Source of the DNA: Gemmobacter caeruleus | GTDB taxonomy: Bacteria; Pseudomonadota; Alphaproteobacteria; Rhodobacterales; Rhodobacteraceae | Direction: 5' to 3' | Length of the DNA stretch: 64,000 nucleotides | NCBI RefSeq assembly: GCF_008271655.1 | Contig: NZ_VKKX01000022.1 | Location: 310,001-374,000, forward strand | Shown: positions 13,533-61,664 of the stretch, one piece after another | Numbering within the stretch: position 1 is the stretch's first letter | How the letters are laid out: each line of letters begins with the position of its first letter | Made by a program: the position numbers and the translations under genes | The notes under the pieces: model-generated | The model's database searches: none | What the model saw: the letters and a program-made list of their open reading frames with translations, nothing else | What the model was told of the DNA's origin: nothing

Positions 13533-15713
13533 ATGCCCCACAACAATACCAACGCCCCCGCCCCCCGCCCCGACGTGCTGACCCGCCCCAAGCTGGAAGG
13601 CGGTCGGCGCTTTGTCATGCAATCGCCCTTTCAGCCGGCGGGCGACCAGCCGACCGCCATCGCGGAACTGACCGCCGGCGTGCAGGCCGGCGAACACGAT
13701 CAGGTGCTGCTGGGCGCCACCGGCACCGGCAAGACCTTTACCATGGCCAAGATCATCGAGGAGACGCAGCGCCCTGCGATCATCCTCGCGCCCAACAAGA
13801 CGCTGGCGGCGCAGCTTTACGGCGAATTCAAGGGCTTCTTCCCGGATAACGCCGTTGAGTATTTCGTAAGCTATTACGATTACTACCAACCCGAAGCCTA
13901 TGTGCCGCGGTCGGACACCTATATCGAAAAGGAAAGCCAGATCAACGAACAGATCGACCGGATGCGCCACTCGGCCACCCGGGCATTGCTGGAACGCGAC
14001 GATGTGATCATCGTGGCCTCGGTCAGCTGCATCTACGGCATCGGCTCGGTCGAAACCTATTCGGCGATGACGCAGGATCTGATCGTGGGGCAGATGTATG
14101 AACAGCGGCAGGTGATCGGCGAACTGGTGGCGCAGCAATACCGGCGCAATGACGCGGCCTTTGCGCGCGGCAGCTTCCGGGTGCGCGGCGACAGCCTTGA
14201 GGTCTGGCCCGCCCACCTTGAGGATCGCGCCTGGCGGTTTTCGTTCTTTGGGCCGGAACTGGAAAGCATCGTCGAATTCGATCCGCTGACCGGGGCGAAG
14301 ACCGATGTGTTCAAGCAGATCCGCATCTATGCGAACAGCCATTATGTGACGCCGCGCCCGACGATGCAGCAGGCGATCAAGGGCATCAAGCTGGAGCTGC
14401 GGCAGCGACTGGAACAGTTGCAGGCCGAGGGCAAGCTGCTGGAGGCGCAGCGGCTGGAACAGCGCTGCAATTTCGATCTGGAAATGCTGGAGGCGACGGG
14501 CGTCTGCAACGGGATCGAAAACTATTCGCGTTACCTGACCGGCCGCGCCCCGGGCGAGCCGCCGCCGACGCTGTTTGAATTCATCCCCGACAATGCCATT
14601 GTTTTCGCGGATGAATCCCATGTTTCGGTGCCGCAGATCGGCGGCATGTATCGCGGCGACTATCGGCGCAAGTTCACGCTAGCGGAACACGGCTTCCGCC
14701 TGCCCTCCTGCATGGACAACCGCCCGCTGAAGTTCGAGGAATGGGACGCGATGCGCCCGCAGTCGATCTTTGTCAGCGCCACCCCGGCGGCATGGGAGAT
14801 GGAGCAGGCCGGCGGCGTCTTTGCCGAACAGGTGATCCGCCCCACCGGCCTGCTGGACCCGGTGGTCGAAATCCGCCCGGTGGAGATGCAGGTCGATGAC
14901 CTGCTGGACGAGATCCGCAAGGTGGCGGCGCAAGGCTTGCGCGTGCTGGTCACCACGCTGACCAAGCGGATGGCCGAAGACTTGACCGAATATTTCCACG
15001 AACAGGGTATCCGCATCCGCTATATGCACAGCGACATCGACACGATCGAACGCATTGAAATCCTGCGGGATTTGCGGCTGGGGGCCTTTGACGTGCTGGT
15101 GGGGATCAACCTCTTGCGCGAGGGGCTGGATATCCCGGAATGCGGGCTGGTCGCTATTCTGGACGCGGACAAGGAAGGGTTCCTGCGGTCGGAAACCTCG
15201 CTCATCCAGACCATCGGGCGGGCCGCGCGCAATGCCGAAGGCCGCGTGATCATGTATGCCGACCGCATCACCGGCAGCATGGAACGCGCCTTGGCCGAAA
15301 CCAACCGCCGCCGCGAAAAGCAGATGGCCTATAACGAGGCGCATGGCATCACGCCGCAAACGGTGAAGAAGAACGTGGAGGATGTGCTGGCCGGCCTCTG
15401 GCAGGGCGATACCGATCAGGCACGCATCACGACCAAGGTGGACAAACCGATGGTCGGGCAGAACCTGGCCGCCCATCTGGATGCGCTGCGCGCGCAGATG
15501 CGCAAGGCCGCCGAAAACCTGGAATTCGAGGAGGCCGCCCGCCTGCGCGACGAGGTGAAGCGGCTGGAGGCGGTGGAACTGGCGGTTTCCGACGACCCGC
15601 TGGCGCGGCAATCGGTGATCGAGGACGCGGTGGAGGAGGCGGTGAAATCCTCGGGCCGCTCCACCGCCGGGCGCGCGGGCCAGCGCGGCGGCAACAAGCG
15701 GCGCCGGCGCTAG
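13533..15713 (+). CDS. uvrB: Excinuclease ABC subunit B
   Basis: A 726-residue nucleotide excision repair helicase-like protein that loads onto damage handed over by UvrA and recruits UvrC. Walker A GATGTGKT (about residues 61-68), the beta-hairpin segment [12 protein letters not shown], the SCIYGIG motif, helicase motifs [11 protein letters not shown] and QTIGRAARN, and a C-terminal UVR domain ([20 protein letters not shown]) are all present. A basic tail GNKRRRR ends it. The start at 13533 matches family N-termini (short polar stretch before the RPKLEGG motif) although the ribosome binding site is poor. Single gene, followed at once by a shared terminator. Confidence 0.97.
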
Positions 15714-46547: not shown

Positions 46548-47132
46548 ATGAGCGAGTCACTGACCATCATCGTTGTCGAACCCGACCGCGCCCGCGCGCT
46601 GGAAATCGTCGATGCGCTGCGCGAGGCCGGCAATCACCGGGTGCATGTGCTGGGCGATGGCGCCAGCCTTGCCCGGCGCGTGACCGAACTGCGCCCCGAT
46701 CTGGTGCTGATCGACATCACCAGCCCCTCGCGCGACATGCTGGAGGAACTGGCGCTGGCCTCTGGCCCGACCGAACGCCCGGTCGCCATGTTCGTCGATC
46801 GCACCGATGCCGGCCTGACCCGCGCCGCGATCGAGGCGGGCGTGTCGGCCTATGTGGTGAACGGTCTGGCCGCCGACCGCATCCGCCCGGTGCTGGATGC
46901 CGCCATTGCCCGCTTTCACCTGTTCAGCCGGATGCGCAGCGAACTGGCCGCGACCCGTGCCGCGCTGGAGGAACGCAAGGTGATCGACCGCGCCAAGGGT
47001 TTCATCATGCGCGCCAAGGGCATCGGCGAGGAAGAGGCCTATGCGCTGATGCGCCGCGCCGCGATGGATCAGGGCAAGCGTCTGCCCGAGGTGGCGCAGG
47101 CCATCGTCATGGCGGCGGAGGTGCTGAAATGA
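46548..47132 (+). CDS. nasT: ANTAR-domain antiterminator NasT
   Basis: A 194-residue RNA-binding regulator. An N-terminal pseudo-receiver domain (LTIIVVEPDRARAL; DLVLIDITSPS with D56) is joined by a helix to a C-terminal ANTAR domain (about 130-192): RAALEERKVIDRAKGFIM, GIGEEEAYALMRRAAMDQGKRL, EVAQAIVMAAEVL. In Paracoccus denitrificans and others, NasT binds paired stem-loops in the nas leader RNA and prevents termination when nitrate or nitrite frees it from NasS. Start at 46548 has ACGGAGG. The stop overlaps the nasS start (ATGA). The matching RNA target is visible at 48372-48411. Confidence 0.95.
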   Translation: MSESLTIIVVEPDRARALEIVDALREAGNHRVHVLGDGASLARRVTELRPDLVLIDITSPSRDMLEELALASGPTERPVAMFVDRTDAGLTRAAIEAGVSAYVVNGLAADRIRPVLDAAIARFHLFSRMRSELAATRAALEERKVIDRAKGFIMRAKGIGEEEAYALMRRAAMDQGKRLPEVAQAIVMAAEVLK

Positions 47133-48280
47133 CCCGCGCCCTGCCCGTCGGATATATCCCGCTGGTCGATGCCGCGCCGCTGATCGTGGCCGCCGAGTTC
47201 GGCTTTGCCGAGGAGGAGGGGCTGGTGCTGGAACTGCGCCGCGCGGCCTCGTGGTCGATGCTGCGCGACATGCTGGATTTCGGGCAGGTGGCGGCGGCGC
47301 AGATGCTGTCGGTGGTGCCGGTGGCGCGGGCGCTGTCGCTGGGCGGCGGCGCGCAGCCGCTGGAGGCGCTGATGGTCATGGCGCTGAACGGCCAGATCTT
47401 CGGGCTGGGCCCGCATCTGCCCGCCCTGCCCTTCGGCGATCCGCTGGCCGCCGGACAGGCGCTGGCCGCGCTGAACCGGCCGCTGCGCATCGGCGTGCCC
47501 TTTCCCTTCTCGATGCAGGCGGAATTGCTGGCCTATTGGCTGGAACGCGCGGCCCCGCGCGCCGAGGTGCAGATCCGCACCGTGCCGCCCCCGCGCATGG
47601 CCGAGGCGCTGCGGGCCGGCGAGGTCGATGGCTTTTGCGTGGGCGAACCCTGGGGCAGCCAGGCGGTCGAACAGGCCGGCGCGCGGCTGGTCTGGCCGGG
47701 ATCGGCGATCTGGTGCCAGGCCCCGGAAAAGGTGCTGGCCACCCGCGCCGGCTGGGCCGAGGCGGAACCCGAGCGCGCGGGCCGACTGATCCGCGCCCTG
47801 TGGCGGGCGACCCGCTGGATGGCCGACCCCGCCAACCGCGTCACCCTGTCGGCGGTGCTGGCGCGGCGCGATCATCTGGATGTCGGGGCCGAGCTGATCG
47901 ACCGCGCGCTGTCGCATCGGCTGCTGATCGCGCCCACCGGGCCGGAAATCGTCGTGCCGCAATTCCAGACCTTTCACCACGGCCTTGCGAATTTTCCGTG
48001 GCGCAGCCAGGCGGGCTGGATCGGGGCGCGGCTGGCGGGGCGGTTCGGCCTGCCGCTGCCCGCCGCGCTGGAAACCGCCCGGGCCACCTTCCGGTCGGAT
48101 CTCTATCGCAGCCATATCGCGCCGCTGGGCGTGTCGCTGCCCCGCGCCTCTGACAAGGCCGAGGGCGCGCTGGCCCGGGATGAATCGCTGCCCGGCACCC
48201 ATGGGCCGCTGACGCTGGCGCGCAATCAGTTCTTCGACGGACGGATTTTCGACCCCGCCCCGGCGATTTCGCCCAAATAA
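47129..48280 (+). CDS. nasS: Nitrate sensor NasS (NrtA-like, cytoplasmic)
   Basis: A 383-residue protein of the NrtA/CmpA solute-binding family but without signal peptide or lipobox, opening directly with LPVGYIPLVDAAPLIVAAEFGFAEEEGL. Family blocks GVPFPFSMQAELLAYWL, EALRAGEVDGFCVGEPWGSQAV and NFPWRSQAGWIGARL are present. Loss of the export signal and tight coupling to nasT (4-bp overlap) identify it as NasS, which holds NasT inactive until it binds nitrate or nitrite. It is about 70 residues shorter than the exported NrtA downstream. The leader RNA with its control signals follows the stop. Confidence 0.93.
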   Translation: MTRALPVGYIPLVDAAPLIVAAEFGFAEEEGLVLELRRAASWSMLRDMLDFGQVAAAQMLSVVPVARALSLGGGAQPLEALMVMALNGQIFGLGPHLPALPFGDPLAAGQALAALNRPLRIGVPFPFSMQAELLAYWLERAAPRAEVQIRTVPPPRMAEALRAGEVDGFCVGEPWGSQAVEQAGARLVWPGSAIWCQAPEKVLATRAGWAEAEPERAGRLIRALWRATRWMADPANRVTLSAVLARRDHLDVGAELIDRALSHRLLIAPTGPEIVVPQFQTFHHGLANFPWRSQAGWIGARLAGRFGLPLPAALETARATFRSDLYRSHIAPLGVSLPRASDKAEGALARDESLPGTHGPLTLARNQFFDGRIFDPAPAISPK

Positions 48281-48299
48281 GCGGCATTTCTCTGCATCG

Positions 48300-48315
48300 C
48301 GGCACGGATTTCGCT
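48300..48315 (+). promoter_or_regulatory. Predicted sigma-54 promoter of the nrt-nas operon
   Basis: CGGCACGGATTTCGCT matches TGGCACG-N4-TTGCW with GG at 48301-48302 and GC at 48313-48314, exactly ten bases apart. Predicted transcript start is about 48325, some 45 nt before the first ANTAR stem-loop. Sigma-54/NtrC control fits a nitrate assimilation operon. An NtrC binding site was not identified in the end of nasS. Confidence 0.65.
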
Positions 48316-48371
48316 GCAACGCAACAAGGGGTTTGACGCCCACCGAATCCGGGCGCAACCTGATCTTCAAG

Positions 48372-48411
48372 ACGGAGCAAGGACGTTCCGTTTCCTCCCG
48401 AATGATCGGGA
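48372..48411 (+). promoter_or_regulatory. Tandem hexaloop ANTAR target (NasT binding site) in the leader RNA
   Basis: Hairpin P1 (48372-48391) has stem ACGGAGC / GTTCCGT (7 bp with one G-T pair) and hexanucleotide loop AAGGAC. Hairpin P2 (48396-48411) has stem TCCCG / CGGGA and loop AATGAT. Both loops have A at position 1 and G at position 4, the known ANTAR recognition rule, and they are 4 nt apart. A terminator follows at 48459. This is the expected RNA target of NasT. Confidence 0.88.
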
Positions 48412-48458
48412 TGACAGGCAAGGCCGCCTGACCCGCCTCCCCCCCACCTCCTCCCTGG

Positions 48459-48494
48459 GGCCGGCGCGTGTCACGCGGCCTTTTTGCATTTTTT
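48459..48494 (+). terminator. Leader terminator (attenuator) before nrtA
   Basis: A GC-rich hairpin with a CGCGT-GTC-ACGCG core, flanked by further GGCC / GGCC pairing, followed by TTTTTGCATTTTTT. It lies 47 nt after the second ANTAR loop and 16 nt before the nrtA ATG. Read-through should require NasT. A pyrimidine-rich tract containing CCTCCTCCC lies just before it. Confidence 0.85.
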
Positions 48495-48510
48495 CCATAC
48501 GGAGCCAGAG

Positions 48511-49866
48511 ATGACCAGAACCGCCCTCCTTCTGTCTGCCGCCCTGCTTGCCCATCCTGCCTTTGCCGCGACCGACGGCATCGAAAAGGATCAGCTTACC
48601 CTCGGCTTCATCAAGCTGACCGACATGGCCCCCCTCGCCATCGCCAAGGAAAAGGGGTTTTTCGAGGATGAGGGCCTGTTCGTGACGCTGGAGGCGCAGT
48701 CGAACTGGAAGGTGCTGCTGGACCGTGTGATCGCGGGCGAACTGGACGGGGCGCATATGCTGGCCGGGCAGCCGCTGGCGGCGACGATCGGCTATGGCAC
48801 CAAGGGCGCCATCGTCACGCCCTTTTCGATGGATCTGAACGGCAATGCGATCACCGTATCAAATGCGGTCTGGGAGGAGATGAAGCCCAATATCCCCGTC
48901 GGCGCCGATGGCAAGCCCGCGCATCCCATCTCGGCCGCGGCGCTGAAGCCTGTGGTCGAGGCCTTTGCCGACCGGGGCGAGGCGTTCAATCTGGGCATGG
49001 TCTTTCCCGTCTCGACCCATAATTACGAACTGCGCTACTGGCTGGCAGCGGGCGGCATCAACCCCGGCTATTACAGCCCCGAAGACGTGTCCGGCCAGAT
49101 CGGCGGCGATGTGCTGATCTCGGTCACGCCGCCGCCGCAGATGCCCGCCACGCTGGAGGCCGGCACCATCGTCGGTTACGCCGTGGGCGAGCCGTGGAAC
49201 CAGGCGGCGGTGCAAAAGGGCATCGGCGTGCCGGTCATCACCGATCACGAGATCTGGTCCTATAACCCCGAAAAGGTGTTCGGCGTCACCGCCGAATTCG
49301 CCGAACAGAACCCGCAGACCATGCTGGCGCTGACCAAGGCGCTGATCCGCGCGGCGATCTGGCTGGACGAAAACGACAATGCCAACCGCCCCGAGGCGGT
49401 GGAGATCCTGAGCCGCCCCGATTATGTCGGCGCCGATGCGGCGGTCATCGCCAATTCCATGACCGGCACCTTTGAATTCGAACCCGGCGACAAGCGCCCG
49501 GCGCCCGATTTCAACGTGTTCTTCCGCCATAACGCGACCTTCCCCTACTACTCGGACGCGGTCTGGTATCTGACGCAGATGCGCCGCTGGGGCCAGATCG
49601 CCGAGGACAAGCCCGACAGCTGGTATGACGCGACCGCGAAATCGGTCTATCGCCCCGATCTCTACAAGGTTGCCGCCGAGGCGCTGATCGCCGAAGGGCT
49701 GGCCAAGCCCGAGATGTTCGATTTCGACGCCGACGGCTATCGCGCGCCGACCTCGGATTTCATCGACGGCATCGCCTATGACGGCCTGACCCCCAATGCC
49801 TATATCGACAGCCTTCCGATCGGGCTGAAGACCGGACAAACGGCCGCCGATGGCGCCGTGAACTGA
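48511..49866 (+). CDS. nrtA: Nitrate ABC transporter substrate-binding protein NrtA
   Basis: A 451-residue periplasmic solute-binding protein of the NrtA/CmpA family. Signal peptide to about residue 19 (AHPAFA then ATDG), not a lipoprotein. Family segments: [53 protein letters not shown], a long middle with [19 protein letters not shown], and [19 protein letters not shown]. It binds nitrate, possibly nitrite or bicarbonate in relatives. ATG at 48511 follows GGAGCCAGAG and is the first gene behind the attenuator. A stable hairpin lies between it and nrtB. Confidence 0.94.
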
Positions 49867-49921: not shown

Positions 49922-51025
49922 ATGACCGCCATCGACACGCATCCCCCCGCCCAGACCGCCGCCCAGACCGCCGACGCCGCGCGCGAGGCCGCCCGCGCCC
50001 GCCGCCTGACCCGCATCAACCGCATGGATGTCTGGCTGCGCGCGCTTGGCCTGCCCTTCGTCACGCCGATCCTGCGCATCCTGGCCGGCGATCATGCCCG
50101 CCCGCAACTGCGCGAGATCTGGCGGCTGGCGGGGGTGCCGCTGCTGGCGATCCTGGCCTTCCTCACGCTGTGGGGCACTTTCGCGCCGATGGTGCAAACC
50201 TCGCTCGGGGCCATTCCCGGCCCGGCGCAGGTCTGGGAACAGGCCCTGGGCCTGAACGAGGCCGCCCGCGCCGAAAAGGTGAAAGAGGCAGAGTTCTACA
50301 GCAAGCAGGACGAACGCAACGCCGCCCTGATCGCCGAGGGCAAGGCCGATCAGGTCAAGACCCGCATCTATACCGGCAAGCCCACCTTCTATGAGCAGAT
50401 CTGGACCTCGATCCAGACGGTGTTCTTCGGCTTTCTGATCGGCACGCTGATCGCGGTGCCGCTGGGCATCGTGTCGGGCCTGTCGCCCACGGCCAATGCG
50501 GCGATCAACCCGCTGGTGCAGGTGTTCAAGCCGGTCTCGCCGCTGGCCTGGCTGCCCATCGTGACCATGGTCGTGTCGGCGGTCTATGTGGGGGGCGAAG
50601 GGGCGCTGCCGAAATCCTTTGTGATCTCGGCCATCACCGTCACGCTCTGTTCGCTCTGGCCGACGCTGATCAATACCGCGCTTGGCGTCGCCTCGATCGA
50701 CCGCGATCTGGTCTCGGTCAGCCGGGTGCTGAAACTGTCGCCCTGGAAAAAGATCACCCGGCTGGTGCTGCCCTCGGCGCTGCCGCTGATCTTTACCGGG
50801 CTGCGCCTGTCTCTGGGCGTGGGCTGGATGGTGCTGATCGCCGCCGAAATGCTGGCGCAGAACCCCGGGCTTGGCAAATTCGTCTGGGACGAATTCCAGA
50901 ACGGTTCCTCCGACAGCCTGGCGCGGATCATGGTCGCGGTCTTTACCATCGGCATCATCGGCTTTCTGCTCGACCGGGTGATGTTCGCGCTGCAATCCGC
51001 CTTCACCTTCTCCAGCAATCGGTGA
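49922..51025 (+). CDS. nrtB: Nitrate ABC transporter permease NrtB
   Basis: A 367-residue inner-membrane permease. A long Ala/Arg-rich cytoplasmic start and an early helix (about 63-82, LAGVPLLAILAFLTLW) precede a periplasm-side insert of about 60 charged residues (LNEAARAEKVKEAEFYSKQDE onward). The core permease domain follows with helices at about 165-185, 200-225, 235-250, 280-300 and 330-350, and the coupling EAA-type loop around SRVLKLSPWKKITRLVLPSALP. It pairs with NrtA and the fused ATPase. Start at 49922; 6 bp separate its stop from the next gene. Confidence 0.93.
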   Translation: MTAIDTHPPAQTAAQTADAAREAARARRLTRINRMDVWLRALGLPFVTPILRILAGDHARPQLREIWRLAGVPLLAILAFLTLWGTFAPMVQTSLGAIPGPAQVWEQALGLNEAARAEKVKEAEFYSKQDERNAALIAEGKADQVKTRIYTGKPTFYEQIWTSIQTVFFGFLIGTLIAVPLGIVSGLSPTANAAINPLVQVFKPVSPLAWLPIVTMVVSAVYVGGEGALPKSFVISAITVTLCSLWPTLINTALGVASIDRDLVSVSRVLKLSPWKKITRLVLPSALPLIFTGLRLSLGVGWMVLIAAEMLAQNPGLGKFVWDEFQNGSSDSLARIMVAVFTIGIIGFLLDRVMFALQSAFTFSSNR

Positions 51026-51031
51026 CGCGCC

Positions 51032-52678
51032 ATGGCCATTCTTGAATTGCGCAACGTCTCCAAGGGTTATGGCGAAACGCCGGTGCTGCGGGGCATGGAT
51101 CTGACGGTGGAGGAAGGCGAGTTTCTGGCCATCCTCGGCTTTTCGGGATCGGGAAAGACCACGCTGATGAAGCTGATGGCCGGGCTGGAACTGCCCGACC
51201 GTGGCGAGGTGCTGTTCCGCGGCCAGCCCGTCACCGGGCCGGGGCCGGAGCGGGGGCTGGTGTTCCAGTCCTATGCGCTGATGCCCTGGCTGACCGTGGC
51301 CGGCAATATCGCGCTGGCGGTCGAGGCGGTCCACAAGGGCAGCAAGGCCGAACGCGATGCGCTGGTCGCGAAATATATCGGGCTGGTGGGCCTCGGCCAT
51401 GCCGCCGACCGCCGCCCGTCGGAACTGTCGGGCGGGATGCGGCAGCGGGTGGCGGTGGCGCGGGCGCTGGCGCTGGCGCCCGACATGCTCCTGATGGACG
51501 AGCCGCTTTCGGCCCTGGACGCGCTGACCCGCGCCAATGTCGCCGCCGAGATCGAGGCGATCTGGGAGGCCGACCGCCGCACCGCCGTTCTGATCACCAA
51601 TGATGTGGACGAGGCGCTGCTGCTGGCCGACCGCATCGCCTGTCTGAACCCCGACGGCACGCTGGGCGAGGTGTTCACCGTCGATCTGCCGCGCCCGCGC
51701 GACCGGCAGGCGATGAATGACAGCCCCCGGTTCAAGGCGCTGCGCGCCGCCGTCACCGCCTATCTGATGGATGTGGGCATGGCGGCGAAGGTCGCCGACA
51801 GCCGGCGCCTGCCCGATGTCACGCCGCGCCACGCCCTGCCCGGCGCCTATGCCAAGGCCGCCGCCGGCAGCCAGATCGACGACCGCTATCTGCACTATTC
51901 GCAGCTGCACAAGATCTATGCTACGCCGAAAGGCCCGCTGACCGTGGTCGAGGATTTCAACCTGACCCTGAAGAAGGGCGAATTCGTCAGCCTGATCGGC
52001 CATTCCGGTTGCGGCAAATCGACGGTGCTGACCATGACCGCCGGGCTGAACGCCATCAGCAAGGGGGCGATCAAGCTGGACGGCTATCACGTCGAGGGCG
52101 CCGACCCGGAACGCGCCGTGGTGTTCCAGTCGCCCAACCTGTTTCCCTGGCTGACCGCCAAGGAGAACGTGGCGATCGGGGTGGACAAGGTCTATCCCCG
52201 CGCCAGCCAGGCCGAAAAGCAGGAGGTGGTGGAATACTACCTTGAGCGCGTGGGCCTGGCCGATGCGATGGACCGGCCCGCCTCGGACATGTCGAACGGC
52301 ATGCGCCAGCGCGTCGGCATCGCCCGGGCCTTTGCGCTGTCGCCCAAGCTGCTGCTGCTGGATGAACCCTTCGGGATGCTCGACAGCCTGACCCGCTGGG
52401 AATTGCAGGAAGTGCTGATGGAGGTGTGGTCGCGCACCCAGGTCACCGCCGTCTGCGTCACGCATGACGTGGACGAGGCGATCCTGCTGGCCGACCGGGT
52501 GGTCATGATGACCAATGGCCCCCGCGCCACCATCGGCCGCATCTGCGAGGTCAACCTGCCCCGCCCGCGCAGCCGCAAGGCGCTGCTCGATCACCCCGAT
52601 TATTACCACTATCGCCAGCAGGTTCTGGATTTCCTTGAGGAATACGAACATGGCGCGCAAAAGAAGGATGCAGCGTGA
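51032..52678 (+). CDS. Nitrate ABC transporter ATPase, two fused ATP-binding domains (NrtC/NrtD-like)
   Basis: A 548-residue protein made of two complete ABC ATPases in tandem. Domain 1: Walker A GFSGSGKTT (about 38-46), signature LSGGMRQRVAVARALA, Walker B MLLMDEPLSALD (about 151). Domain 2: Walker A GHSGCGKST (about 323-331), signature MSNGMRQRVGIARAFA (an altered LSGGQ), Walker B LLLLDEPFGMLD (about 440). A linker of about 45 residues joins them. Unlike cyanobacterial NrtC, there is no NrtA-like C-terminal domain. One polypeptide would supply the whole ATPase dimer for NrtB. The stop overlaps the nirB-type gene start. Confidence 0.92.
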   Translation: MAILELRNVSKGYGETPVLRGMDLTVEEGEFLAILGFSGSGKTTLMKLMAGLELPDRGEVLFRGQPVTGPGPERGLVFQSYALMPWLTVAGNIALAVEAVHKGSKAERDALVAKYIGLVGLGHAADRRPSELSGGMRQRVAVARALALAPDMLLMDEPLSALDALTRANVAAEIEAIWEADRRTAVLITNDVDEALLLADRIACLNPDGTLGEVFTVDLPRPRDRQAMNDSPRFKALRAAVTAYLMDVGMAAKVADSRRLPDVTPRHALPGAYAKAAAGSQIDDRYLHYSQLHKIYATPKGPLTVVEDFNLTLKKGEFVSLIGHSGCGKSTVLTMTAGLNAISKGAIKLDGYHVEGADPERAVVFQSPNLFPWLTAKENVAIGVDKVYPRASQAEKQEVVEYYLERVGLADAMDRPASDMSNGMRQRVGIARAFALSPKLLLLDEPFGMLDSLTRWELQEVLMEVWSRTQVTAVCVTHDVDEAILLADRVVMMTNGPRATIGRICEVNLPRPRSRKALLDHPDYYHYRQQVLDFLEEYEHGAQKKDAA

Positions 52679-55107
52679 TGGCCGAAAAGCTTGTCATCAT
52701 CGGGGCCGGCATGGCCTCGGGGCGGATGCTGGAACATCTGCTGGAAGCCGCGCCCGGGCAGTTCGACGTGACACTGTTCAACGGCGAGCCGCGCGGCAAT
52801 TACAACCGGCTGATGCTGTCGCCGGTGCTGTCGGGCGAAAAGACCTATGAACAGATCGTCACCCATGACGATGCCTGGTATGCGGCAAACGGCGTGACCT
52901 GCCGCTTTGGCGAGGCCGTGGTGCGGATCGACCGCGACCGCAAGGTCGTGGTGTCGAAAGGCGGCGAGACGGCTTATGACAAGCTGGTCATCGCCACCGG
53001 ATCGGCGCCCTTCATCATTCCGGTCGCGGGCAAGGAACTGCCCGGCGTCGTCACCTATCGCGATCTGGAAGATACCAATGCGATGATCGCCGCCGCCCGG
53101 CCCGGCGCCTCGGCCGTGGTGATCGGCGGCGGGCTGCTGGGGCTGGAGGCCGCCGCCGGTATGGCTGCCCGCGGCGCCAGCGTCACCGTCATTCACCTGA
53201 TGGGGCATCTGATGGAGCGCCAGCTCGATCCGGCGGCGGGCTATCTGCTGCAAAAGGATCTGGAACGGCGCGGCATCACCGTGCATTGCAAGGGCGCGAC
53301 CAAGGCCATTCTGGGCACCGACCGGGCCGAGGCGGTGCTGCTGGAAGACGGCACCGTCTATCCCGCCGATCTGGTCTGCATGGCCGTGGGCATCCGCCCC
53401 GAAACCCGGCTGGCCAATGACGCGCATCTGGAGGTCGGGCGCGGCGTCGTGGTGGATGACCAGATGATGACCTCGGATCCGTCGATCTTTGCGCTTGGCG
53501 AATGCGTGGAACATGACCGCCAGTTGTTCGGCCTTGTCGCGCCGCTTTACGATCAGGCCAAGGTGCTGGCCCGCGCGCTGATCGGCGAGGCTGCGGCCTT
53601 CCGCCCGGTGCAGACCGCGACCAAGCTGAAGGTGACGGGCGTCGATCTGTTCAGCGCCGGCGATTTCGCCGAGGGTCCGGGCCGCGAGGATATCGTGTTC
53701 CGCGATCCCGGGCGCGGCATCTACAAGCGCCTGATCCTGGAGGGCGACCGCCTGCTGGGGGCCGTGATGTATGGCGATACCGCCGACGGGTCGTATTTCT
53801 TTGACCTGATCAAGCAGGGCAAGGACGTGTCGGATCTGCGCGAGACGCTGATCTTTGGCCCGGCCTTCGCGGGAGGGTCCAAGGCGGACCCTCTGGCGGC
53901 CGTTGCAGCCTTGCCGCCTGAGGCGGAGATCTGCGGTTGCAACGGCGTCTGCAAGGGAAAGATCGTTCAGGCCATCGAAGGCGGCGCGACCTCGCTGGAT
54001 GCGATCCGCGCCACCACCAAGGCATCGGCATCCTGCGGCACCTGCACGGGGCTGGTGGAACAGGTGCTGCAACTGACGCTGGGCGCCGATTTCGTGCTGC
54101 CCACGGTGCAGACCCTGTGCAAATGCACCGATCACACGCATGAGGACGTGCGGCGGCTGATCAAGTCGATGGGTCTGAAATCCATTCCGGCGGTGATGCA
54201 GGAACTGGGCTGGAAGACGGTGGGGGGCTGTGCCTCGTGCCGGCCGGCGCTGAACTATTACCTGCTGGCCGACTGGCCGCTGGACTATCAAGATGACCGC
54301 CAGTCGCGTTTCGTCAACGAACGTAACCACGCCAATATCCAGAAGGATGGCAGCTATACGGTGGTGCCGCGCATGTGGGGCGGCCTGACCACCCCGGACG
54401 AATTGCGCGCCATTGCCGACGCGGCCGAGAAATACGCCGTGCCGATGGTCAAGGTGACGGGCGGCCAGCGGATCGACCTCGTGGGCGTCCGCAAGGAGGA
54501 TCTGCCGGCGATCTGGTCGGATCTGAACGCCGCCGGCATGGTGTCGGGCCACGCCTATTCCAAGGGGCTGCGCACGGTAAAGACCTGTATCGGGTCGCAA
54601 TTCTGCCGCTTCGGCACGCAGGACAGCACCGGGTTGGGGGTCAAGCTGGAAAAGCTGCTCTGGGGGTCGTGGACGCCGGCCAAGGTCAAGCTGGGCGTCT
54701 CGGGCTGTCCGCGCAACTGCGCCGAGGCCACCTGCAAGGATATCGGCGTGATCTGCGTGGACAGCGGCTATCAGATCAGCGTCGCCGGCGCGGCGGGGCT
54801 GGAGGTCAAGGAGACCGAGCTTCTGATGACCGTCGCCACCGAGGAGGAGGCGATGGAGGTGATCGCCGCCTTCACCCAGCTTTATCGCGAAAACGCGCGC
54901 TATCTGCACCGGATCTACAAATGGGTGGCCAAGGTCGGGCTGGACTGGTGCAAGGACCAGATGGCCGACCCGGACACCAGACGCGCGCTTTATGACCGCT
55001 TCATGATCAGCCAGTCGGTCTATCAGAAAGACCCCTGGGCCGAACATGCCGCCACACCCGCCGAATGGGCACCGATCGCCGATCTCACGCTGAGGGCCGC
55101 AGAATGA
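52678..55107 (+). CDS. nasB: Assimilatory NAD(P)H-nitrite reductase large subunit NasB (NirB-type)
   Basis: An 809-residue cytoplasmic siroheme enzyme reducing nitrite to ammonium. FAD/NAD(P)H domain at the N-terminus (LVIIGAGMASGRML; VVIGGGLLGLEAAAGMAARGA; FALGECVEHD), a BFD-like [2Fe-2S] region with cysteines about 418-455 (CGCNGVCKGK, CGTCTG), a second cysteine pair group (CKCTD about 480; CASCRP about 517), then ferredoxin-like and siroheme/[4Fe-4S] domains with CIGSQFCRFG (about 637) and GCPRNCAEATC (about 676). ATG at 52678 overlaps the ATPase stop. It overlaps nasG by 4 bp, so the two are made together. Confidence 0.95.
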   Translation: MAEKLVIIGAGMASGRMLEHLLEAAPGQFDVTLFNGEPRGNYNRLMLSPVLSGEKTYEQIVTHDDAWYAANGVTCRFGEAVVRIDRDRKVVVSKGGETAYDKLVIATGSAPFIIPVAGKELPGVVTYRDLEDTNAMIAAARPGASAVVIGGGLLGLEAAAGMAARGASVTVIHLMGHLMERQLDPAAGYLLQKDLERRGITVHCKGATKAILGTDRAEAVLLEDGTVYPADLVCMAVGIRPETRLANDAHLEVGRGVVVDDQMMTSDPSIFALGECVEHDRQLFGLVAPLYDQAKVLARALIGEAAAFRPVQTATKLKVTGVDLFSAGDFAEGPGREDIVFRDPGRGIYKRLILEGDRLLGAVMYGDTADGSYFFDLIKQGKDVSDLRETLIFGPAFAGGSKADPLAAVAALPPEAEICGCNGVCKGKIVQAIEGGATSLDAIRATTKASASCGTCTGLVEQVLQLTLGADFVLPTVQTLCKCTDHTHEDVRRLIKSMGLKSIPAVMQELGWKTVGGCASCRPALNYYLLADWPLDYQDDRQSRFVNERNHANIQKDGSYTVVPRMWGGLTTPDELRAIADAAEKYAVPMVKVTGGQRIDLVGVRKEDLPAIWSDLNAAGMVSGHAYSKGLRTVKTCIGSQFCRFGTQDSTGLGVKLEKLLWGSWTPAKVKLGVSGCPRNCAEATCKDIGVICVDSGYQISVAGAAGLEVKETELLMTVATEEEAMEVIAAFTQLYRENARYLHRIYKWVAKVGLDWCKDQMADPDTRRALYDRFMISQSVYQKDPWAEHAATPAEWAPIADLTLRAAE

Positions 55108-55439
55108 CCGATTTCATCGACATCGCCGCATTGGACGACATTCCCCGCCAGGGCGCGCGGGTGGTCAAGACGCCGCTGGGCTGCATCGCCATCTTCCGCA
55201 CCGCCGATGATCAGGTCTTTGCGCTGGAGGATCGTTGCCCCCACAAGGGCGGCCCGCTCTCCGAAGGCATCGTGCATGGCAGCCAGGTGACCTGTCCGCT
55301 GCATGGCTGGGTCTTCGACATGGCGACCGGGCTGGCACAGGGCGCCGACGAAGGTGCGGTGCGCAGCTTTGCCGCCCGGACCGAGGGCGGGCGGGTGCTG
55401 CTGGACGCCGCCTTCATGGCGCGCAGGTCGGCGGCATGA
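55104..55439 (+). CDS. nasG: Rieske [2Fe-2S] protein NasG (NirD-type nitrite reductase small subunit)
   Basis: A 111-residue Rieske protein. Cluster ligands are C-x-H in DRCPHKGGPL (about 44-46) and C-x2-H in TCPLHGWVFD (about 63-66). In Paracoccus denitrificans NasG passes electrons between the NADH-oxidising nitrite reductase NasB and the nitrate reductase NasC. Its placing exactly between those two genes, with 4-bp ATGA overlaps on both sides, supports the same role here. ATG at 55104 is set by the overlap; the open frame begins 13 codons earlier inside nasB. Confidence 0.94.
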   Translation: MTDFIDIAALDDIPRQGARVVKTPLGCIAIFRTADDQVFALEDRCPHKGGPLSEGIVHGSQVTCPLHGWVFDMATGLAQGADEGAVRSFAARTEGGRVLLDAAFMARRSAA

Positions 55440-58063
55440 CGGCGGGGGTGCGCACCACCTGCCCCTATTGCGGCGTGGGCTGCGGGGTGCGGGTCGCGCC
55501 CGCCCCCGGGGGCGGCTTCGCGGTCAGGGGCGATGCCGATCACCCGGCCAATCAGGGGCGGCTCTGTTCCAAGGGCACCGCGCTGGCGGAAACCCTGTCG
55601 GATGCCGGGCGGCTGCTCGCCCCGCGCATCCACGGGCAAGACGCGGATTGGGACAGCGCGCTAAACCTGATCGCGCGCCGCTTTGCCGAAACCATCGCCA
55701 CGCATGGCCCGGATTCCGTCGCGCTCTATGTCTCGGGCCAGTTGCTGACCGAAGATTACTATGTCGCGAACAAGCTGATGAAGGGCTATATCGGCAGCGG
55801 CAATATCGACACGAATTCAAGGCTTTGCATGGCGTCTTCCGTCGCAGGCCACCGACGCGCCTTTGGCACCGACACCGTGCCGGGCCTTTATGACGATCTG
55901 GAAAGCGCCGATCTGGTGGTGCTGACAGGGGCCAACCTCGCCTGGTGCCACCCGGTGCTGTATCAGCGCCTGGTCGCGGCGAAACAGGCCCGACCGGGGC
56001 TGAAGATCGTGGTCATCGACCCGCGCCGCACCGCCACGGCCGATATCGCCGACCTGCATCTGCCCCTTGCGCCGGGCTCGGATGCCGCCCTGTTCAACGC
56101 GCTGCTGGCCGAGATCGACCGCCGCGGCGCCACCGATCGGGCCTATCTCGCCCATATCGCCGGGTATGAGGCCGCCCTTGCCGCCGCACGGGCCACCGAC
56201 CCCGCCATGACCGGCCTTGCCCCCGCTGACCTCGCGCGGTTCTGTGACCTGTGGATCGGCACCGAACGGGTTGTCACCGTCTATTCGCAGGGCATCAACC
56301 AGTCGGCCACCGGCACCGACAAGGTGAACGCCATCCTGAACTGCCACCTCGCCACGGGCCGCATCGGGCGCCCCGGCATGGGGCCGTTCAGCGTGACCGG
56401 CCAGCCCAATGCCATGGGCGGGCGCGAAGTGGGGGGGCTGGCCAATATGCTCGCCTGCCATCTGGAGATCGAGAACCCCGCGCATCGCGCCGCCGTGCAG
56501 GGCTTCTGGGCCAGCCCGCGCATGGCCGACCGCCCGGGCCTCAAGGCCGTAGACATGTTCCGCGCGGTCGAGGAAGGGCGGATCAAGGCGCTGTGGATCA
56601 TCCACACCAACCCCGCCGTTTCCATGCCCGAGGCCGACCGCGTGGCCCGCGCCATCGCCGGCTGCGATTTCACCGTGGTCTCCGACATCACGGCGGCGAC
56701 CGATACCGCGCGGCTGGCGCAGGTCTTGCTGCCCGCCGCCGCCTGGGGCGAGAAATCGGGCACCGTCACCAATTCCGAACGCCGCATCAGCCGCCAGCGC
56801 CCGTTCCGCCCGGCCCCGGCTGCGGCGCGGCCGGATTGGTGGGCGCTGGCCGAGGTGGCGCGCCGCATGGGCTTTAGCGGGTTCGACTGGGACGGGCCGG
56901 CGGCGATCTTTGCCGAATATGCCGCGCTGTCGGGCGTGGCGGGCGAGATGGGCAGCGATTTCGACATCTCGGACCATGCCGCTATCGACGCTGCCACCTA
57001 TGACCGGCTGGAGCCGTTCCTCTGGCCCGCCAATGCGCGTCAAAACGGCGGGCGCTTCTTCGGCAATGGCCGGTTTCATACGCCCGACGGGCGCGGGCGC
57101 ATGCTGCCGATCACACCGCAGGCGCCGCAACCGCTCAGCCCCGACTGGCCGTTCCGGCTGAATACCGGGCGGGTGCGCGACCAGTGGCACAGCATGACAC
57201 GCACCGGCCTCGCACCCCGCCTCGGGCATCATCTGGGCGAACCCTATCTGGAGATTCACCCCCGCGACGCCGCGACGCTGGGCCTTGCCCCCGCCACCCT
57301 GGCCGAGGTGACCAGCCCCTCGGGGCGCGCGCTGATGCGGGTTCTGGTGTCGGATCGGGTGGCGCCGGGCCACCCCTTCGCCCCGATCCACTGGACCGGC
57401 GAAACCGCGCCTTCGGGCCGGATCGACGCGCTGGTGCCCGGGCGCACCGATCCGGTCTCGGGCCAGCCCGACAGCAAATCCGCCACCGTGGCCATCCGGC
57501 CCTTTGCGGCGGGCTGGTATGGCTATGCCGTCTCTGCCGCGCCCATGCGCCCCGATTGCGCCTATTGGGCGCAGGCGCCGCTGGCCCAGGGCCACCGGGC
57601 CGAACTGGCCGGTGCGGCGCCGCCGCCCGACTGGGCCGACTGGGCGCGCGCGTTGTTCGCCCTGCCCGCAGAGGCCTCTGCGCTGATCTACGAAGACCGG
57701 GCGCGCGGCCAGATGCGGCTGGCCTTCACCATGGGCGGCAAGGTCGTCGCGGCCCTGTTCGTGGCGCCGGAGCCCGTCGCCCTGTCGCGCAGCCACCTAG
57801 CCGAGCTGCTGGGCGAACACCCCGCCGCCGCCACGCTGGCCGGCCGCCCCGGCGCCGACCGGCCCGACCCCGGCCCGGTCGTCTGCGCCTGTTTCAGCGT
57901 GGGGGCGAACACCATCCTGCACGCGATCACCGAGGGCGGCTGCCTGACGGTCGAGGCCATCGGGGCGGCGCTTCAGGCCGGCACCAATTGCGGATCGTGC
58001 AAGCCCGATCTGGCGCGGCTGCTGGCACAGGCCCGCCCGCCCCGGCAACACGCGGCGGAATAG
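55436..58063 (+). CDS. nasC: Assimilatory nitrate reductase catalytic subunit NasC
   Basis: An 875-residue molybdopterin oxidoreductase reducing nitrate to nitrite in the cytoplasm. N-terminal [4Fe-4S] site CPYCGVGC (C9, C12, C16) with the fourth cysteine in CSKG (about 43), the Mo-ligand cysteine in SRLCMASSVAG (about 130), the family blocks GPFSVTGQPNAMGGREVGG, VTNSERRISRQR and the C-terminal molydopterin-dinucleotide-binding domain with NTGRVRDQWHSMTRTG. An extra BFD-like [2Fe-2S] domain at the end (CACFSVGANTILHAI about 817; CGSCKPDL about 851) would accept electrons from NasG. Start overlaps nasG by 4 bp. Confidence 0.96.
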   Translation: MTAGVRTTCPYCGVGCGVRVAPAPGGGFAVRGDADHPANQGRLCSKGTALAETLSDAGRLLAPRIHGQDADWDSALNLIARRFAETIATHGPDSVALYVSGQLLTEDYYVANKLMKGYIGSGNIDTNSRLCMASSVAGHRRAFGTDTVPGLYDDLESADLVVLTGANLAWCHPVLYQRLVAAKQARPGLKIVVIDPRRTATADIADLHLPLAPGSDAALFNALLAEIDRRGATDRAYLAHIAGYEAALAAARATDPAMTGLAPADLARFCDLWIGTERVVTVYSQGINQSATGTDKVNAILNCHLATGRIGRPGMGPFSVTGQPNAMGGREVGGLANMLACHLEIENPAHRAAVQGFWASPRMADRPGLKAVDMFRAVEEGRIKALWIIHTNPAVSMPEADRVARAIAGCDFTVVSDITAATDTARLAQVLLPAAAWGEKSGTVTNSERRISRQRPFRPAPAAARPDWWALAEVARRMGFSGFDWDGPAAIFAEYAALSGVAGEMGSDFDISDHAAIDAATYDRLEPFLWPANARQNGGRFFGNGRFHTPDGRGRMLPITPQAPQPLSPDWPFRLNTGRVRDQWHSMTRTGLAPRLGHHLGEPYLEIHPRDAATLGLAPATLAEVTSPSGRALMRVLVSDRVAPGHPFAPIHWTGETAPSGRIDALVPGRTDPVSGQPDSKSATVAIRPFAAGWYGYAVSAAPMRPDCAYWAQAPLAQGHRAELAGAAPPPDWADWARALFALPAEASALIYEDRARGQMRLAFTMGGKVVAALFVAPEPVALSRSHLAELLGEHPAAATLAGRPGADRPDPGPVVCACFSVGANTILHAITEGGCLTVEAIGAALQAGTNCGSCKPDLARLLAQARPPRQHAAE

Positions 58064-59380: not shown

Positions 59381-59507
59381 CCTGCCGCAAGGCGGCGCGC
59401 CCCGACCGCGCGCGGCTGTCCCTCGCGCGCCCGCGCCGCCGCCCGGCCCTGCGCCGGTGGCCCCGGACGCCCTTGCCCGGCGGGCGCGCCCAATGGAAAG
59501 GTTGTCT

Positions 59508-59605
59508 GAGTATTTGGGCAAGAAGCAAAGGCAGATGCGGTTTGGCTGCGGCTGTGTTTGCTTCTTGTCGAAATACTCCGGGGGACCGGGGGCTGGCCCC
59601 CGGCG
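59508..59605. repeat. Dispersed repeat: inverted half copy plus full copy with hairpin
   Basis: Bases 59508-59529 (GAGTATTTGGGCAAGAAGCA and two more) and 59557-59578 form 22-nt inverted arms with two mismatches around a 27-nt loop. The second arm continues into a full 48-bp copy (59558-59605) of the element at 19373-19420, with three differences, including the CCGGGGG-CTGG-CCCCCGG stem-loop (59586-59603). It lies between the MFS gene and prmA and may end the MFS transcript. Confidence 0.75.
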
Positions 59606-59670
59606 TCGCCGCTTGACCCCCGCTGCGTGGGGGGCTATCGCGGGTCCAAGCCGAGCCCGAGGAGCCCGCC

Positions 59671-61352: not shown

Positions 61353-61664
61353 GGCGGTTGTCCTTGTTCAAAAACTGCTCAGTCGGAAGGCATCCTTGCC
61401 TTCGAGGCGGTAAATAGTCGGGCATCAGGCAAACAACAACTGACGGCTCCGCATGACGCAGTTGCAGAAAGTGCATGGCTCAGCACCCGAATTTCGCCGT
61501 TTTTATTGGGGTTTGCGACATGCTGCACCGCGGCGCGTCGGTTTTGTGGGGCGATCCGTCGCTTTCCGGTGCCGCCTGCCGATGCGCGCCCGCGCGGCAA
61601 TTTCACCTTGGCCGATGTTCGCGCTTTGTGCTAGATTCGCGAAAAGACCAGAAACGGGGCAGAT
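61353..61664. other. Divergent intergenic region between DUF1127 and ruvC
   Basis: 312 bp without a gene. Near ruvC, TTGGCC (61608-61613), an 18-bp spacer and TAGATT (61632-61637) make a possible plus-strand promoter. Near DUF1127, TTGTTG, 17 bp and TATTTA can be read on the minus strand, but weakly. No LexA box (GTTC-N7-GTTC) was found. A small inverted repeat AGGCATCCTTGCCT (61389-61402) lies in the DUF1127 leader. Confidence 0.4.

Follow-up and report, generated by a model that had tools for sequence, protein, structure and literature searches.

Antitermination by NasS and NasT is already known. In the Paracoccus denitrificans nasABGHC system, as the available parts of PMC3795266 and PMC5424462 describe it, nasT-nasS lie directly upstream of the operon, a nitrate-released ANTAR protein acts on the leader RNA, and NtrBC exerts general nitrogen control. 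NasT binds the nasA leader RNA there (PMC3795266), and a hairpin mutation in the leader, which has two hairpins (HI and HII), abolishes growth on nitrate (PMC3795266, PMC5424462). The same excerpts place an NtrC site ahead of nasT; one within the nasA leader is, in their account, not yet located. Klebsiella nasF, in the excerpts at hand, likewise combines nitrate-responsive ANTAR antitermination with Ntr control, but NasR senses nitrate itself, and the general tier is Ntr including NtrA (sigma-54) rather than an NtrC lacking the GAFTGA loop. Bradyrhizobium diazoefficiens NasT targets the leaders of several genes, those named in the available part of PMC6759348 including nos, nap, nirA and a putative coxS, with siroheme synthase not among them. 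A further related system is EutV with the Enterococcus faecalis eut leaders (PMC3369931, PMC8934654, both consulted as partial texts): two hairpins whose hexaloops carry A at position 1 and G at position 4 (A1/G4), the second inside the terminator, separated by a linker of 5-12 nt. Extending the linker by 20 nt abolished EutV antitermination, and EutV is proposed to move from P1 to the terminator-overlapping P2 (PMC8934654, in its available portion).

The locus described here lies in a window of 64,000 nucleotides (the whole stretch of Gemmobacter caeruleus DNA that was analysed), from a genome of 55 contigs and 3.99 Mb with a completeness of 99.99%; all genes and leader features below are on the forward strand. 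The product of nasT (46548-47132) has response-regulator-like and ANTAR domains (ANTAR, PF03861, E 2.5e-20; the Response_reg match, at 28.6 bits, falls slightly below its cut-off of 30.2), and a profile search found no other ANTAR match in the genome. Its closest named relatives, in the best 80 of 223 (records very near this genome may be absent), belong to Rhodobacteraceae, Gemmobacter included. The start of nasS (47129-48280, stop codon 48278-48280) overlaps the 3' end of nasT by 4 nt; it encodes a nitrate-sensor-like substrate-binding protein of the NMT1_2 family (PF13379, E 1.2e-55), and its name rests on family and position. Downstream of this pair, on the same strand, the presumed controlled operon opens with an nrtA-like substrate-binding protein gene (48511-49866; PF13379, E 2e-91), followed by an nrtB-like permease (49922-51025; permease match under the NCBIfam cut-off), an nrtCD-like protein (51032-52678; two ABC domains, ntrCD match over the cut-off), a nirB-like gene (52675-55107; TIGR02374 over the cut-off), a Rieske/NirD-like gene assigned by eye (55065-55439) and a nitrate-reductase-like gene from 55436, the block ending at 58063 (assimilatory nitrate reductase matches under NCBIfam cut-offs). 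The nrtCD-like product is a single protein in which ABC_tran and ntrCD each match two stretches, as though nrtC and nrtD had been fused.

A first-pass annotation of the region between nasS and nrtA had read it as a NasT/NasS-type antitermination leader behind a sigma-54 promoter. The first half of this reading agrees with the position of nasT-nasS directly upstream, and on comparative sequence evidence the region is an ANTAR (NasT) antitermination leader. By every computable feature it belongs to the ANTAR-dependent leaders: it has two A1/G4 hairpins, P1 and P3, P3 overlaps the terminator, and the genome encodes a cognate ANTAR protein. Rfam families gave no match at gathering score in the window.

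The predicted architecture consists of three hairpins and a strong terminator ahead of nrtA, where the P. denitrificans leader has two hairpins. P1 (48370-48393) presents the hexaloop AAGGAC (48379-48384) on a 9-bp stem (48370-48378 with 48385-48393) and is the proposed recruitment hairpin; the middle hairpin, M (48396-48411), presents AATGAT (48401-48406) on a 5-bp stem (48396-48400 with 48407-48411); and P3 (48415-48430, CAGGC-AAGGCC-GCCTG), the proposed antitermination hairpin, presents AAGGCC (48420-48425) on a stem of 48415-48419 with 48426-48430. The stem-loops with AAGGAC and AATGAT were both in the first-pass annotation and are present in the sequence where it placed them. Its pairing of these two as the ANTAR element did not hold: the third A1/G4 hexaloop, absent from that reading, has A1 and G4 like the P1 loop, and the conserved pair is AAGGAC with AAGGCC, the latter overlapping the terminator. 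The P1-P3 linker is 21 nt in the window, with a P1-M gap that would be 2 nt, and 22-37 nt across 56 aligned leaders when counted from a 5-bp P1 stem. It is thus longer than the eut linkers and, in contrast to them, contains a third hairpin, placing the leader outside the eut type; as this hairpin spaces the two conserved ones, the EutV hand-over model can be tested here on a naturally occurring arrangement.

The terminator hairpin, which the first-pass annotation had also noted with its T5 and T6 runs ahead of nrtA, is confirmed. Its 5' arm (48420-48433) has bases in common with P3 and its 3' arm (48469-48482) covaries with the 5' arm; the T runs lie at 48481-48485 and 48489-48494, at the terminator's end and upstream of the nrtA start at 48511. 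Bases 48420-48430 are common to P3 and the terminator, so the two are mutually exclusive. The 171 nt from 48330 to 48500 fold more stably than all 200 of 200 shuffles (z -3.95). When the growing transcript was folded, P1, M and P3 were kept to 48475 and the terminator fold had appeared by 48486 (-57.2 kcal/mol); for 48368-48498 the minimum was -58.0 kcal/mol, versus -44.0 with P3 forced. Since the predicted flip is complete by 48486, NasT would hold P3 only while polymerase crosses the T runs; that NasT does so is inferred by analogy with the EutV model and with NasT on the P. denitrificans nasA leader. The leader's end lies near a GGAG string ahead of the nrtA start, as might be expected if control were translational or by Rho and the hairpin were not an intrinsic terminator. 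We consider this very improbable, given that the stem is rich in GC and leads into T5 and T6 runs, a stem and T run kept in the 56 aligned leaders (a set partly selected for them), and the same combination ahead of three cysG or methyltransferase genes described below.

To compare this architecture across relatives we collected the stretches downstream of nasS from the best 80 of 223 NasT relatives, the best 30 of 61 family-genome matches and the window. From these 112 entries (the window and 111 loci) we removed three whose nasS runs off the contig end, five set aside by hand (L071 and L034, whose nasS frame is broken; L059, L061 and L063, in which no leader was seen) and six duplicates, leaving 98 leaders; a P1 rule failed in four, so that 94 were usable for counts anchored on loop 1. 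A simple rule requiring two nearby A1/G4 hexaloops found them in 38 of 109 leaders, with duplicates kept and the window present three times, versus 2 of 1,090 shuffles. We defined nrtA-type leaders as those with nrtA as the following gene, at 70% identity or more to the copy in the window; 43 of them were distinct. In 40 of these 43, P1 and P3 occurred together with a downstream arm able to pair with the loop and stem of P3, versus 9 of 840 shuffles; this count uses a relaxed terminator rule, applied identically to the shuffles, an initial stricter rule having given 18 of 43. The remaining three (L037, L057 and L102) score 46-61 bits against the covariance model R1 introduced below, which was built without them, so that between them the two methods account for all 43.

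The rule was passed by 58 leaders of the nrtA-type and short groups, and 56 of these (all but L046 and L019) entered a structure-blind MAFFT alignment used to examine base-pairing. Cells of P1, M and P3 changed on both sides numbered 121, where shuffles gave 49.8 and slid versions 13-27, and the covariation score was 0.399 versus 0.218 in shuffles. The number of pairs with a two-sided change was no higher than in shuffles (10 versus 10.5), and further pair types (35 versus 32.1) were counted as not exceeding them. P1 had 83.8% of cells paired with two-sided changes in six of eight pairs, P3 had 97.9% with three of five, and M, whose alignment was poor, had 68.2%. The terminator helix was paired in 88.5% of cells over the 56 leaders, with two-sided changes in 7 of 13 pairs (5.3 in shuffles; 36 of 500 shuffles were as high) and 43 cells changed on both sides, versus 15.0 in shuffles and 2-13 in slid versions. 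All these paired percentages are biased upward, because the aligned leaders were chosen partly for having hairpins and a terminator, and the covariation shuffles ignore shared ancestry.

The middle hairpin is less constant. By rule 9 of 40 nrtA-type leaders carry an A1/G4 hexaloop there (44 of 800 shuffles) and 31 do not; its stability is mostly unexceptional for its composition, and in only 7 of 56 leaders did no more than 5 of 100 shuffles equal it. M too bears an A1/G4 loop in the window's clade. A relay is conceivable, both there and in a second set of nas leaders, in which M would be a true site and NasT would use all three loops in turn, or a multimer would bind them together. A count of leaders with three spaced A1/G4 hexaloops, its thresholds set after viewing the leaders, gave 20 of 98 against 0 of 980 shuffles, in favour of such a relay; the P. 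denitrificans NasT oligomer is broadly consistent with a hexamer (PMC3795266, available part). In the ten nrtA-type leaders of this triple-loop set the M loop varies at positions 2, 3, 5 and 6, but the constancy of A1 and G4 in the set is there by construction, since A1/G4 defined it. The window's own M, moreover, favours an alternative 4-nt loop by 1 kcal/mol over AATGAT (-8.8 versus -7.8). With the M loop lacking A1/G4 in most nrtA-type leaders, we regard the relay as rather unlikely. Under the preferred reading, in which P1 and P3 are the NasT sites, M may instead be a spacer that shortens the P1-P3 distance. Mutating AATGAT, the loop named in the first-pass annotation, would then probe the wrong hairpin.

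The initiation signal proposed at first, a sigma-54 (-24/-12) promoter at 48300-48314 read by NtrC and followed by AAGGAC and AATGAT as the ANTAR pair, fared poorly. A -24/-12-like string, GGCACG-GATT-TCGC (48300-48314), does exist in the leader, but it carries 8 of 10 consensus letters, a score that 62 places reach or exceed in the 64-kb window on both strands, and we judge it a chance match. Neither Sigma54_DBD nor Sigma54_CBD had a match in this 99.99%-complete genome, each having matched 4 of 14 control genomes, and the genome's own NtrC (L115; ntrC is its best family at 397 bits, under the cut-off of 558.6) lacks the GAFTGA loop, the part that contacts sigma-54. NtrX and one other regulator also lack GAFTGA, and one further regulator has GAFPGA. 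The absence extends through the family: Sigma54_DBD had no match in 44 of 61 nasT-positive family genomes, nor in one further family genome (G170), while it was present in 27 of 27 nasT-positive genomes of other families found among 190 genomes of the class. Matches of at least 9/10 occur in 1 of 98 family leaders versus 4 of 294 shuffles, and GG-N10-GC has no strong fixed place (best 7-nt window 13 of 94 leaders, mean 5.4). Among 19 alphaproteobacterial stretches downstream of nasS from outside the family, 9 score 9-10/10 (6 of 380 shuffles reach at least 9/10), so the guess suits the wider group; yet the window's string lies 78 nt ahead of loop 1, a distance of about 30-50 nt in those eight high-scoring non-family leaders for which a loop is listed. 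Together with the scarcity of AATGAT-type A1/G4 loops among relatives, this makes a sigma-54 promoter with that hairpin pair scarcely credible here. The high-scoring loci outside Rhodobacteraceae are L121, L122, L123, L124, L127, L128, L129, L136 and L137. Hexaloop spacing outside the family varies widely, some adjacent loop pairs being 18-21 nt apart.

A different promoter class is indicated by position. TTGA occurs 43-49 nt ahead of A1 of loop 1 in 57 of 94 leaders, versus a mean of 5.3 per 7-nt window, and is missing from this place in the other 37. In columns anchored on TTGA, A is enriched at +24 (32 of 57) and T at +28 (34 of 57), a pattern that fits a -10 box separated from it by a 17-nt spacer. 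The box is far from universal, as counts in short leaders indicate: it was found in 9 of 20 from rpoN-negative genomes and in 2 of 7 from rpoN-positive family genomes, none of the latter having a -24/-12 score above 8. In the window we predict a -35 box, TTGACG (48333-48338), 46 nt ahead of loop 1, and a -10 box, CAACCT (48356-48361), after a 17-nt spacer, positions from which we infer that the RNA starts near 48368, at the base of P1. This is contrary to a start downstream of 48411, which the first-pass annotation had named as evidence against its leader.

That annotation had joined nitrogen status and nitrate in an AND gate. Two inputs are plausible, but its sigma-54 initiation is contradicted by the lack of an rpoN match. 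In Rhodobacterales NtrC the GAFTGA loop is deleted, and Rhodobacter capsulatus NtrC works via sigma-70 (PMC10274813, available part); by analogy with R. capsulatus and P. denitrificans, an NtrC input may exist here too. The published NtrC-site pattern, as given in the accessible part of PMC5424462, gave no excess in the window (86 matches with at most two mismatches, 92.7 expected). A motif TGC-N(2-6)-GCAGC occurs upstream of the -35 box, about 58-106 nt ahead of loop 1, in 34 of 94 leaders versus 4.7 in shuffles, and 28 places noted in the same comparison fit a related pattern; the window has a loose version only. It is a candidate binding site for NtrC, NtrX or another regulator.

The covariance model R1, built from 53 of the 56 aligned leaders (L011, L015 and L027 were left out), ties the leader to its putative regulator. 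Over 149 family genomes, the same set as in the nasT search, R1 gave 47 matches in 45 genomes, all nasT-positive: 45 of 61 nasT-positive genomes matched versus 0 of 88 nasT-negative ones (Fisher 6.6e-25; 4.0e-18 after removing 16 genomes used for training R1, though some of those left may be near-identical to named training loci), with no match in 16 of the 61. Where a close nrtA is lacking, as in Paracoccus, the leader scores no more than 25 bits or goes unmatched, the P. denitrificans leader (L075) reaching 16 bits; outside the family, one locus (L126) matches well at 43.7 bits. The window's genome has a single site. Weaker matches in the window at 59518-59618, 59456-59483, 61356-61406 and 14761-14831 (10.5-19.1 bits) were dismissed as chance, none appearing in the own-genome search at E 1. 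The first sits in a long inverted repeat (59508-59578, GAGTATTT...AAATACTC) that separates an MFS-like gene from its neighbour.

Five R1 matches lie away from the nasT identified in their genomes. Two, in G008 and G022, are the nrtA leader on a separate contig; the other three, in G071, G088 and G092, stand ahead of siroheme synthase CysG (two) or uroporphyrinogen-III methyltransferase (one). These copies (L160:229-293, L161:296-361 and L162:3675-3739) each have a GCGGCTTTTTT terminator ahead of the start codon. Siroheme serves NirB-type nitrite reductase, so NasT leaders on siroheme genes make functional sense. The window's own genome has no second R1 site, though uroporphyrinogen-III methyltransferase-type genes occur elsewhere in it. 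The parts of the literature available to us do not mention siroheme synthase as being under NasT control, and a search covering mostly papers outside subscription turned up none that describes a three-hairpin NasT leader.

Taken together, we think it very probable that the leader is a NasT-controlled transcription attenuator, with a TTGAC promoter, P1, M and P3 followed by the terminator, and nitrate-freed NasT acting on P1 and then P3. A housekeeping-type (TTGAC) promoter would initiate the RNA at about 48368, and P1, M and P3 would form in order as it emerges. With no nitrate, NasT would be held by NasS, and the 3' arm at 48469-48482 would capture the P3 loop and stem, giving the stabler terminator and a stop before nrtA. 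With nitrate, freed NasT would bind P1, for recruitment, and then P3, preventing the terminator until polymerase is past the T runs; both the binding to P1 and P3 and its order are proposed by analogy. M would draw P1 and P3 near each other despite the long linker. If nitrogen status exerts control as well, it would do so via the GAFTGA-less NtrC at the sigma-70-type promoter, as is reported for R. capsulatus.

More tentatively, and with somewhat less than even confidence, we suggest that these leaders form a distinct three-hairpin ANTAR switch: NasT would be recruited at P1, right at the 5' end of the RNA, and pass by way of M, an A1/G4 site in some lineages, to P3, so that the long linker works; its regulon would have reached siroheme synthesis in some Rhodobacteraceae; and its promoter would have changed from sigma-54 to sigma-70 as GAFTGA and rpoN were lost, the RNA switch remaining unchanged. 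The present comparison corrects the layout of the ANTAR element for a large group of nitrate-assimilating bacteria. It suggests that the promoter class was swapped while the RNA switch downstream was retained, and it predicts that in some relatives nitrate would control synthesis of the siroheme cofactor via NasT.
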